Source: Deltaproteobacteria bacterium
GTDB taxonomy: Bacteria; Desulfobacterota_B; Binatia; UBA9968
Assembly (NCBI GenBank): GCA_030620935.1
Contig: JAUXIP010000076.1
Coordinates: 1-8,142, forward strand
DNA: 8,142 bases
Direction of reading: 5' to 3'
The notes under the pieces are model-generated. The model had not been told where the DNA came from. It ran no database searches and saw only the letters and a list, made by a program, of their open reading frames with translations. Positions 1,111 through 4,199 of this stretch are shown in pieces; position 1 is the stretch's first letter, and the number at the start of each line of letters is the position of its first letter. Position numbers and translations under genes: made by a program.

Positions 1111-1123
1111 GAGATGTGAGCAG
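1111..1123. repeat. 13-bp core direct repeat, copy 2
   Basis: gagatgtgagcag lies at the right-hand junction of the lipoprotein module. It differs by one base each from the copies at 85-97 and 2716-2728. The distance to copy 3 is 1026 bp, the size of the putative insert. Confidence 0.6.
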
Positions 1124-1158
1124 GCTGGATTTCTTCGGAGTCTTCCAAATCACTGAGA
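1111..1158 (-). pseudogene. Detached comM/yifB tail (upstream piece)
   Basis: On the minus strand this encodes [15 protein letters not shown], against [15 protein letters not shown] in the intact ComM (13 of 15 residues). By hand alignment 38 of 45 bases match between 1111-1155 and 2716-2760. Similarity stops abruptly a few codons upstream, where an in-frame TAA appears. It ends at the 13-bp core (1111-1123), after which the lipoprotein promoter and leader region begins. Joined to 42-97 through the shared core, it gives one uninterrupted comM tail of about 30 codons. It supplies a spurious upstream extension to the lipoprotein frame. Confidence 0.75.
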
Positions 1159-1267: not shown

Positions 1268-1522
1268 TTACTTCCCAAAGGCACTCAAAGTCTTTGAGAG
1301 TAGCTCCTTGGGGTGACTAATGCAGTGACTAATGCAGTGACTGGTGCAGTGACCGATGCAGTGGGCTTCCGGGACCGCCTGTAGCGCGCCCGCCCTGATT
1401 TCCTCAACTCTCGCCGCTGCTACAAGCTGCTTGAACTCCGGACTAGCAAACGCTGCTTGTTGAGTTTCTGGTGCCGCCCTCGCTCTGGCCTTGAAGCTTC
1501 TTAACTCGTCTCTAGCGCTCAT
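1268..1522 (-). CDS. Small protein with C-terminal Cys-His tetrapeptide repeats
   Basis: This 84-residue protein of unknown function has two parts. Residues 1 to about 53 are charged, Ala-rich and probably helical, with no signal peptide. Residues 54-70 are HCIGHCTSHCISHCISH, four HCxx units closed by a His (four Cys, five His). A short tail, PKELLSKTLSAFGK, follows. The start is well supported: the minus strand has GAGGAGG six bases before the ATG. The Shine-Dalgarno overlaps the end of the 246-codon gene, whose stop lies 15 bases upstream, so the two are almost certainly co-transcribed. The repeat is encoded by 12-bp DNA units. A leader followed by a Cys-rich repeated segment resembles the layout of ribosomally made, modified peptide (RiPP) precursors, and the HC ladder could also bind metal (Cu, Zn); both are inference. 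No recognisable modification enzyme lies next to it. Confidence 0.75.
   Translation of the reverse strand: MSARDELRSFKARARAAPETQQAAFASPEFKQLVAAARVEEIRAGALQAVPEAHCIGHCTSHCISHCISHPKELLSKTLSAFGK
1310..1363. repeat. 12-bp tandem repeat encoding HC-x-x units
   Basis: About 4.5 copies of a 12-mer with consensus gcagtgactaat on the plus strand (units at 1310, 1322, 1334, 1346 and a partial at 1358). The minus strand reads each unit as Ile-Ser-His-Cys or a variant. Near-identity of the units points to recent slippage or expansion. Since 12 is a multiple of three, copy number can change without shifting the frame. Confidence 0.85.
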
Positions 1523-1536
1523 CAGTTTCCTCCTCT

Positions 1537-2277
1537 CTAATTATGATCCAAGCCCACGGCCATATCATCCGAGACCCTTGAAGAGGGTTTATGGCCGTTA
1601 CAGTGCCTTTGACAGTGGCTTATACAATGGTTATTGCACTCTGTTCCGCTCCACTCTTGTGCAGCAAGCTTAACCGGTGGTGTGAAGATCCAGAGAGTCT
1701 GAGTTGTATCCATTGTGCGCACTTTTGACTGTAAGGCTGGCTCTAATGTTAACGTGCGTCTGGGTTCATCCGTGCTTTCGAGAAGTGTCTCGCCGTCCTT
1801 GAGCGAAAAAGGCTTGCGAGAGTACAAACTCACAATACCGAATACGTCTGTCAGCCCGAGGTCGATCAACTTGTCCACCATATCCGACAAGAATCCGTGG
1901 GATTGGGCTATCATTTCCACTTGGACTCGGGCATCTTGTTGGTCCCGGGGCTCGTATTCAACGAACTCCAATGGATAGAAGCCCTCACCGCTGCTTGACC
2001 TGTCGAACTTCCAAAGATATGGGATGGCGCCTTTGTGGTCTTTCGCCTTCAGCGGCCTCATATAGGCCGTGTTTCCAACGAACTGTCGAATTACTATCTC
2101 GTCCTGCGAAATATCAAAATGTTTATGGAGGAACGAAATACCTACATCCTTTTCAAGCCCATGATTACAAATGACGTCCCCGAAAAGGATGATTGACTGT
2201 TTGTGCTGTTCCAGGGCTTCCCTCGCAACATTGAACTCGCTCACCCGATCAAAAACGTCAGCATCGTAGTCCTTCAT
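1537..2277 (-). CDS. Unknown 246-residue protein with C-terminal Cys-His repeats
   Basis: I do not recognise the family. Residues 1 to about 180 look like a soluble globular domain with mixed charge; there is no signal peptide, membrane segment or familiar nucleotide-binding motif. A conspicuous stretch around residues 35-58 holds CNHG, DVGISFLHKHFDI and several His residues. The C-terminal part carries C214, H217-C218, H221-C222, H225-C226 and H229, the same (HCxx)n spacing as the 84-residue protein encoded next door. The codons differ between the two genes (mostly CAT/TGT mixed with CAC/TGC here), so the motif seems conserved at protein level rather than copied recently. The ATG at 2277 has only a weak Shine-Dalgarno. 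A promoter candidate lies about 120 bp upstream. The gene appears less GC-rich than the guaBA region. Shared motif and operon structure imply that the two proteins work together or undergo the same metal loading or modification. Confidence 0.75.
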   Translation of the reverse strand: MKDYDADVFDRVSEFNVAREALEQHKQSIILFGDVICNHGLEKDVGISFLHKHFDISQDEIVIRQFVGNTAYMRPLKAKDHKGAIPYLWKFDRSSSGEGFYPLEFVEYEPRDQQDARVQVEMIAQSHGFLSDMVDKLIDLGLTDVFGIVSLYSRKPFSLKDGETLLESTDEPRRTLTLEPALQSKVRTMDTTQTLWIFTPPVKLAAQEWSGTECNNHCISHCQRHCNGHKPSSRVSDDMAVGLDHN

Positions 2278-2672: not shown

Positions 2673-4199
2673 CTAAAACGCTTTCCGATCAAGACTCCGG
2701 TATTGAATTGCCTCGGAGATGTGGGCAGGCTGGATCTCTTCGGAGCCTTCGAGATCAGCGATGGTGCGGCCGACTTTGAGGATGCGGCTGTAGGCCCGGG
2801 CACTCAGGCCGAGCTTGTTAATCGCCATCTCTAACAGTCTCTCCGACCCTTCCTTCACAACACAGTGCCGCTTGATGTCCATACTCCCCATCTGGGCATT
2901 GGCATGGATGCCTCTCTTTTGGAAACGGTTGTGCTGGATTATTCGGGCCGCGTTGACCCTTTGGCGAATGATCGAAGATGGCTCTCCCGCATCGCGCGTG
3001 GCCAGATCCTGGTAGCGCAGCGCGGGCACCTCGATCTGAATGTCGATCCGGTCCAAGAGAGGACCGGAGACTCTGGAGCGGTAGCGTTGAATTTGGAGGG
3101 GCGTGCAACCACACTCCTTTTGCGAGTCGGTAAAAAATCCGCAGGGACAAGGATTCATGGCGGCAACCAGCATGAATCTGGCCGGATAATTGATCGATCC
3201 GACGGCACGGGACACGGTAATGTTGCCGTCTTCCAAAGGCTGCCGCAAAACTTCCAACACATTGCGCTTAAACTCCGGCATCTCGTCGAGGAAAAGAACT
3301 CCATTATGCGCTAAAGAGACCTCTCCGGGCTTGGGAATGGTCCCGCCTCCGACCAGGCCGGCATCAGAAATGGTGTGATGAGGAGAACGAAAAGGCCGCG
3401 TAGCAATGAGGGGTTTTCCGTCGAGCAAGCCCATGACGCTGTGAATTTTGGTCGTCTCCAAGGCTTCGGCGAGGGTCAAATCGGGCAAGACCGTGGGCAG
3501 TCTCTTGGCCAGCATTGTCTTGCCCGAACCCGGCGGGCCCACGAGGATAACGTTGTGACCGCCGGCCGCCGCGACCTCCAAGGCCCGTTTGACGTGCTGT
3601 TGTCCTTTAACGTCGCTGAAGTCGAAATCGTACTGGCAGTGCCGCTGGAAGAGGTTCTCCAGATCCACGTGCATGCGCTCAAGAACCCTCTGCCCGTTTA
3701 GAAACTCCACGACCTGAGGCAGGTTTTGCACTCCATAGACATCGATCCCCTGGATGACGGCGGCCTCGGGGCCATTCACTGCTGGAAGAATGAGACCTTT
3801 CAGCCCCTCCCTCTTGACCGCCACCGCGATCGGCAAACCGCCGCGGATGGGTTTGATCTCGCCATCCAGGGACAGCTCCCCTGCTATGAAATATTCTTTG
3901 AGACGGTCTCTTTGGATCAATTCTTCTGCAGCCAGGATTCCCACGGCCATGGGCAGGTCGTAAGCCGACCCTTCTTTTTTAATGTCGGCCGGGGCCAAGT
4001 TGATGGTGATCTTTTTAGTTGGAAAGGAATAGCCGCAATTCTTCACGGCTGCGCGGATGCGGTCCTTACTCTCTCTCACCGCTCCTTCGGCCAGGCCTAC
4101 GGTTGCAAGCTGGGGAAGCCCTGAGGAGAGGTCAATCTCGACCTCGACCCGCAGGGCATCGACCCCATAAAGAGCTGCGCTGTTGACCTTGGCCAGCAT
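2673..4199 (-). CDS. comM: ComM/YifB-family Mg-chelatase-like AAA+ ATPase
   Basis: This 508-residue cytoplasmic ATPase belongs to the YifB family. The studied member, ComM, is a hexameric helicase that promotes branch migration during integration of DNA taken up by natural transformation. All parts are present. An N-terminal ChlI/S5-like domain (about residues 5-130, with [12 protein letters not shown]) is followed by an AAA+ core with Walker A GPPGSGKT (221-228), Walker B LFLDE (302-306), sensor Asn in AAMNPCPCG (near 349), an arginine-finger region SGPLLDRID (Arg384) and a CxC...CxC cysteine cluster. The C-terminal domain ends in the typical [10 protein letters not shown] tail. An upstream in-frame TTG/ATG-like start (4241) would add 14 residues, but [12 protein letters not shown] is the family's usual N-terminus and GGAG lies seven bases before that ATG. 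It is divergent from guaB. Its last ~30 codons recur in pieces downstream. Confidence 0.95.
2716..2728. repeat. 13-bp core direct repeat, copy 1 (inside comM)
   Basis: gagatgtgggcag encodes part of the PAHIS segment of the intact comM tail. It matches the copies at 1111-1123 (one mismatch) and 85-97 (two mismatches). Here both flanks are comM sequence, whereas copy 2 keeps only the upstream flank and copy 3 only the downstream flank. Confidence 0.6.

Follow-up and report, generated by a model that had tools for sequence, protein, structure and literature searches.

The DNA analysed here, hereafter the window, is an 8,142-nt stretch of contig JAUXIP010000076.1 from a Deltaproteobacteria bacterium (assembly GCA_030620935.1). 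On its minus strand lie two adjacent genes, named BIG and SMALL in this work, whose products carry the same cysteine-histidine ladder towards their C-termini (Table 1). The window also contains a ComM-like gene, so named from its Mg_chelatase and ChlI domains, together with guaB, guaA, a PIN-domain gene and a lipoprotein-like ORF. The latter (102-1148) has no Pfam family above cut-off, and its upstream part extends into the outer comM repeat. BIG and SMALL are separated by 14 nt, and not by the 15 bases given in the original prediction, and the AGGAGG ribosome-binding site sits inside this gap, six nt ahead of the ATG of SMALL. An RNA element was discarded as a candidate, since no Rfam family matched the window at gathering score.

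Table 1. Features of the BIG-SMALL cassette, in positions of the window
Feature	Positions	Strand	Description and basis
BIG	1537..2277	minus	246 aa; duplicated LLHxHF domain, C-terminal (CxxH)4 tail; ORF, 48 homologues, AlphaFold2
BIG repeat 1 (LLHxHF)	1993..2220	minus	residues 20-95; hhalign against the second half
BIG HKHF motif	2116..2127	minus	residues 51-54; near-invariant across the 49-sequence alignment
BIG repeat 2	1672..1917	minus	residues 121-202; bears ExxDxxxR (E167, D170, R174); hhalign and alignment
BIG ladder CNNHCISHCQRHCNGH	1591..1638	minus	residues 214-229; within the tail of predicted disorder
SMALL	1268..1522	minus	84 aa; helical domain and (CxxH)4 ladder; ORF, profile homologues, model
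SMALL helical N-terminal part	1373..1516	minus	residues 3-50; AlphaFold2 and invariant positions
SMALL ladder CIGHCTSHCISHCISH	1313..1360	minus	residues 55-70; coincides with a tandem repeat of 12 bp in the DNA
AGGAGG ribosome-binding site of SMALL	1529..1534	minus	between BIG stop and SMALL start; read from sequence
Outer copy, 42-nt direct repeat	1111..1152	.	88% identical, att-like
Inner copy, 42-nt direct repeat	2716..2757	.	within the ComM-like gene, at its 3' end

The presence of a Cys-His ladder in both adjacent genes, as originally predicted, was confirmed. The C-terminus of BIG reads Cx2HCx2HCx2HCx2H followed by 17 more residues, and SMALL carries HCx2HCx2HCx2HCx2H followed by 14; both are best written as a contiguous (CxxH)4. 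All four cysteines of SMALL fall within its ladder, in which His residues are as many as Cys. By using a six-frame translation of the window, it was found that these two ladders are its only strings of at least two contiguous CxxH units. When the residues of each protein were shuffled 200,000 times, three units were obtained in no shuffle, and two units in 80 shuffles of SMALL and 36 of BIG. The proposal that the motif is selected at protein level also stands, as the ladder codons differ between the two genes and the dN/dS values were below 1 in all pairs computed, these being 0.12, 0.37 and 0.27 for SMALL (three Pseudonocardia pairs) and 0.18 for BIG (one pair computed). Within the unit, Cys and His are kept, and the two positions between them are highly variable. 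The ladder of SMALL is repeated at the DNA level as well, with a period of 12 bp, and slippage may therefore have helped to create it here. On this ground the ladders could be seen as functionless products of slippage, an explanation that is scarcely credible and was rejected: the codons vary across genes and species, yet Cys and His persist, no computed pair reaches a dN/dS of 1, and the retention of the gene pair across unrelated genera largely refutes it. A full-text literature search for the CxxH-ladder motif retrieved unrelated proteins, and no matching bacterial protein.

BIG is the product of a tandem duplication, its two halves aligning with an E value of 4.6e-7 (hhalign, for that single comparison), and the residues of HxHF and ExxD...R are almost invariant among the 49 aligned sequences. 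Its AlphaFold2 fold is confident, with a C-terminal tail that is predicted to be disordered. The comparison of this model with PDB folds returned zero matches, and the profiles of BIG and SMALL retrieved nothing significant among PDB chain sequences. In agreement with the original prediction, which knew of no named family for the pair, neither protein could be assigned in Pfam, NCBIfam, PHROGs or PADLOC. Two other candidates were discarded through these and related searches, namely a phage or viral origin, for which phage records, viral contigs (alignments A2 and A5) and PHROGs gave no match, and a defence system (no PADLOC match).

SMALL was modelled by AlphaFold2 with 20 sequences, giving a pTM of 0.50 and helices at residues 3-16, 21-25, 28-68 and 73-82, the last with low confidence. 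The block means of pLDDT were 93-95 for residues 1-40 and 75 for residues 41-50, falling to 61 and 67 over the ladder and to 53 or less beyond it. Positions L7, F10, K11, A24, S27, F30 and L33 are invariant. As the helix 28-68 spans most of the ladder, an arrangement of Cys and His in stripes along it is possible in the model, at a ladder pLDDT of only about 61-67, but not established. SMALL may occur in several copies, as exemplified by Nannocystis: the locus L001 has three copies and a fragment, two of the copies lying on the opposite strand, and L006 has one ladder-bearing SMALL behind BIG, with broken copies on the opposite strand.

The search with BIG gave 48 homologues at E ≤0.01, among which 35 have at least two contiguous CxxH units (three units in 23, four in 12) and 13 do not. 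Within the latter group, eight proteins are devoid of a Cys/His-rich tail (P0012, P0017, P0033, P0034, P0039, P0041, P0042 and P0043, of which P0039 has one single Cys), the Cys of P0044 and P0045 are scattered, and P0046-P0048 terminate in a short tail of the Cys-Gly-His-Cys type or a variant thereof. The existence of such homologues implies that the LLHxHF domain can function without the ladder. A single-sequence search with SMALL returned itself and P0050 only, and the profile search listed 21 proteins, including these two. None of the 21 has fewer than three contiguous units (four in 15, five in four and three in two), in a search whose profile was built from ladder-bearing sequences. At the Nannocystis exedens locus (L002), the ladder of SMALL is lost, breaking down after the first unit, beside an intact BIG. 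Homologues of both proteins lacking the repeats had been named at the outset as an argument against the proposal, and they exist in part, as the ladder-less BIG proteins and this one SMALL. More distant relatives of BIG carry other Cys/His tails: CxxxC plus Hx3H in G038, G051 and G102; CxxxC plus Hx4H in G734; a repeated CxxCK in G351, where a trypsin-like protease gene precedes the gene of the relative; and scattered Cys in G259. SMALL homologues were absent around the seven distant BIG relatives whose surroundings were searched (L035, L036, L038, L039, L040, L046 and L019).

The gene context was available for seven loci with a close BIG, most of the 48 BIG homologues being known as proteins alone, and at 7/7 a SMALL homologue is the next gene downstream: the window, three loci of Nannocystis and three of Pseudonocardia. 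The six loci outside the window were obtained by scanning one genome per species across 84,980 species, in a scan restricted to two peptide patterns, and in all six both genes share the same strand. The pair thus recurs in six further genomes, and the lack of co-occurrence outside the source genome, which would have spoken against the original prediction, was not observed. Among 62 Pseudonocardia genomes, BIG was found in three and SMALL in four, namely those three and G615. This last genome has no BIG match, and the leader start of its SMALL (L037 9203-9529) is in a different frame, possibly by sequencing error. In the Nannocystis order (29 genomes), both genes are found in the same three. 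In wider samples, in which the best few candidates per genome were scored, matches were found in 6/297 genomes of the family of G003 (two full, four distant), in 2/282 and 3/377 genomes of two samples from the phylum of G001 and in 2/396 genomes from the phylum of G003, with G1102 as a weak match. The GuaA of the window is 58% identical to the copy of G001 and 53% to that of G003, which suggests that the host of the window may belong to a third phylum.

The cassette is bracketed by the two 42-nt direct repeats, which are identical at 37 of 42 positions. In the reading frame of comM, four of the five differences leave the encoded amino acid unchanged, and the outer copy thus resembles a displaced comM end; as the inner copy lies in the 3' end of comM, this gene may be the insertion site. 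The G+C content of the bracketed 1.56 kb is 0.50, in comparison with 0.56-0.57 for comM, guaB and guaA, with 0.49 for BIG and 0.55, close to the host level, for SMALL. The repeats, the composition and the patchy distribution fit a horizontal acquisition of the cassette via insertion at comM. An integrase gene was not recognised in the window, and L002-L005 showed no evident flanking repeats of this kind.

The genes surrounding the cassette differ between the genera. A ferritin-like gene is located directly upstream of BIG in 3/3 Pseudonocardia loci (by homology, and by PF00210 for the copy of L003). Upstream of the cassette, L001 has, on the opposite strand, a Cu type II monooxygenase-like gene (7189-8613), and some 2.7 kb downstream of BIG a gene for a matrixin-type peptidase; relatives of both occur in L002 and L006. 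L002 also contains a PhyH-type oxygenase gene, and L004 a DsbA-like gene. In L003, SMALL is followed by a rhodanese gene, which resembles one lying beside the broken SMALL of L037. The neighbour scan covered 18 proteins, a subset of the ORFs around five of the six loci (L001-L005). The original prediction had pointed to nearby MNIO (DUF692), YcaO, radical-SAM or peptide-export genes, and none of them was present among these 18 proteins; no metal regulator or transporter was recognised there either. MNIO (PF05114) occurs elsewhere in 5/6 cassette genomes, as a partial match in G003, and was not found in G005; YcaO (PF02624) occurs elsewhere in 4/6, G003 and G004 being the two in which it was not found. 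Neither lies inside the 10-kb cassette flanks in these six genomes, and a distantly encoded enzyme is possible.

Taken as a whole, the pair may constitute an undescribed two-protein system for metal handling or peptide modification. The reading that we favour, at somewhat less than even odds (about 0.45), is a metal-buffering or metal-transfer module made of two proteins and borne by a small acquired cassette. The (CxxH)n ladders would each provide a chain of thiolate and imidazole ligands for soft or borderline metals, such as Cu(I), Zn or Ni. SMALL would act as a carrier similar to a metallothionein and dock through its helical domain, and BIG would hold its own ladder on a flexible tail next to the duplicated LLHxHF domain. 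The metal could then be exchanged between the matched ladders, and also with a putative site in BIG built of HxH...E and ExxDxxxR. Both proteins are probably cytosolic, as no signal peptide was seen by eye. A metal pair is favoured because Cys and His are the conserved part of the ladder, because the wider family keeps Cys/His tails without a fixed motif and because such tails are known on metal chaperones. The ladder in 35/48 BIG proteins, the constant position of SMALL behind BIG and the frameshift in the orphan SMALL of G615 speak for this reading, and so do the upstream ferritin-like gene in Pseudonocardia, the Cu monooxygenase-like gene in Nannocystis and the absence of MNIO, YcaO and radical-SAM genes among the scanned neighbours. 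Against it stand the 13/48 ladder-less BIG proteins and the lost ladder of N. exedens SMALL beside an intact BIG, a leader-plus-core anatomy and several Nannocystis SMALL copies that resemble RiPP precursors, a ferritin link confined to one genus, a Cu monooxygenase-like gene confined to Nannocystis and placed on the opposite strand, and scanned genes in which no metal regulator or transporter was recognised.

Several known systems resemble the pair in part. SlyD, among the nickel chaperones, is described as having an unstructured, variable and His/Cys-rich C-terminal tail that binds Ni (PMC7055735), and BIG likewise has a folded domain followed by such a tail. However, neither an FKBP-type domain nor any other known domain is recognised in BIG (Pfam; no PDB fold match); the tail of BIG repeats CxxH strictly, and a small partner bearing the same repeat accompanies the protein. 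Metallothioneins and Hpn-like peptides are, like SMALL, small and rich in Cys or His ligands; SMALL differs from them by its helical N-terminal domain, its contiguous CxxH units and its lack of a Pfam family, and no metallothionein family was found above cut-off, the match to C_tripleX being weak (E 0.59). The copper storage proteins (Csp) have Cys at every fourth helix residue, as in the ladder, and are described as four-helix bundles with the Cys pointing inward (PMC5171941), whereas SMALL has a single terminal ladder with equal Cys and His and no Cys-lined four-helix bundle was found in it. The MNIO-modified bufferins are reported as Cys-rich metal-binding bacterial peptides (PMC12452194), but no MNIO gene was present among the scanned cassette neighbours; in the main text of that survey, the terms “histidine” and “CxxH” are absent (PMC12452194). 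Burpitides and borosins are described as relying on an enzyme that either contains its own core or acts on a stand-alone small precursor whose leader is helical (PMC11253845, PMC8429565), while BIG has no BURP or methyltransferase family (Pfam, E ≤1). Membership in the MNIO, YcaO, borosin, burpitide, SlyD and Csp families was rejected, as the defining genes were not found among the scanned neighbours, nor the defining domains or fold in the proteins themselves.

In the main rival explanation, the cassette encodes a new kind of RiPP: SMALL would be the precursor, with a helical leader and a (CxxH)n core, and BIG would modify SMALL in trans and itself in cis. We regard it as possible but unlikely. 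SMALL does combine a conserved helical leader with a C-terminal repeat core, present in L001 as three copies and a fragment, and BIG has a fold without PDB match in which HxHF and ExxD...R are near-invariant. The fused and split routes are both described for burpitides and borosins, the N-terminal domain of the split borosin precursor SonA being helical as well (PMC11253845, PMC8429565), and an action of BIG both in trans and in cis would combine these arrangements. Oxygenase-type genes lie by some cassettes, PhyH in L002 and the Cu monooxygenase-like gene in Nannocystis; the PhyH gene, however, is found at one locus only, and the scanned neighbours include no known RiPP enzyme. As for the candidates that could act in trans from elsewhere, the search for MNIO gave none in G005 (a MAG, maybe incomplete), and that for YcaO none in G003 or G004. 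No modified peptide is known, and the unlike Cys/His tails on the distant BIG relatives are expected of metal tails rather than of one fixed core. The stronger claim that BIG founds a new enzyme fold, the duplicated LLHxHF domain, which modifies the (CxxH)n core of its own tail in cis and that of SMALL in trans, appears doubtful to us; it would define a new RiPP class whose enzyme is itself a product, the product being probably a metal ligand.

Two further explanations place the ladders in other roles. In a metal-bridged assembly, the ladders would zip BIG to SMALL, or SMALL copies to each other, via shared Zn or other ions, the chemistry residing in BIG. Two unrelated partners with identical ligand spacing would suit such a zipper, as would the model helix running through most of the SMALL ladder; the helix confidence is nevertheless low there and the unit counts are unequal (3-5 in SMALL, 3-4 in BIG), which makes it improbable. 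A redox or cofactor module, whose Cys would form disulfides or a sulfur relay, or hold together with His a haem or an iron-sulfur cluster, is permitted by the chemistry of the ladder and gains something from the rhodanese gene after SMALL in L003 and the similar gene by the broken SMALL of L037. It is very improbable, in that His is as strictly conserved as Cys and a rhodanese was recognised at only one of the six intact cassette loci. The haem site is CxxCH, and CxxH runs in the opposite sense. Returning to the metal-buffering or metal-transfer module, its confirmation would imply a new ligand architecture, the contiguous CxxH, and a matched donor-acceptor pair; if the RiPP explanation holds, a new enzyme fold that also modifies itself would be implied. 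Two families without a model in the searched libraries form a recurrent two-gene module across unrelated bacteria.

Some observations on proteins related to BIG are given separately. One giant-virus protein, A0A7S7YEN9 of medusavirus stheno, has a predicted fold similar to that of BIG, with a Foldseek E value of 1.4e-13, TM scores of 0.69/0.74 and 23% identity over 203 alignment columns. Its label “ureidoglycolate hydrolase” is unsupported by Pfam in BIG or in the BIG homologues, and no paper connecting medusavirus with ureidoglycolate was found in the literature search. A distant BIG relative (L019 5971-6711) is located on a conjugative Rhizobium phaseoli plasmid and has CxxxCxxC near its C-terminal end. 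The two-repeat relative at L046 8458-9198 has a CxxxC...Hx4H tail, and the ORF ahead of it appears PPE-like by eye. Single-domain LLHxHF proteins of about 125-136 aa also occur (L035 8581-8991, L038 807-1193, L039 6105-6488 and L040 7380-7754); no Pfam family was found in the three that were scanned (those other than that of G102), and the tails of all four contain Cys or Cys/His.
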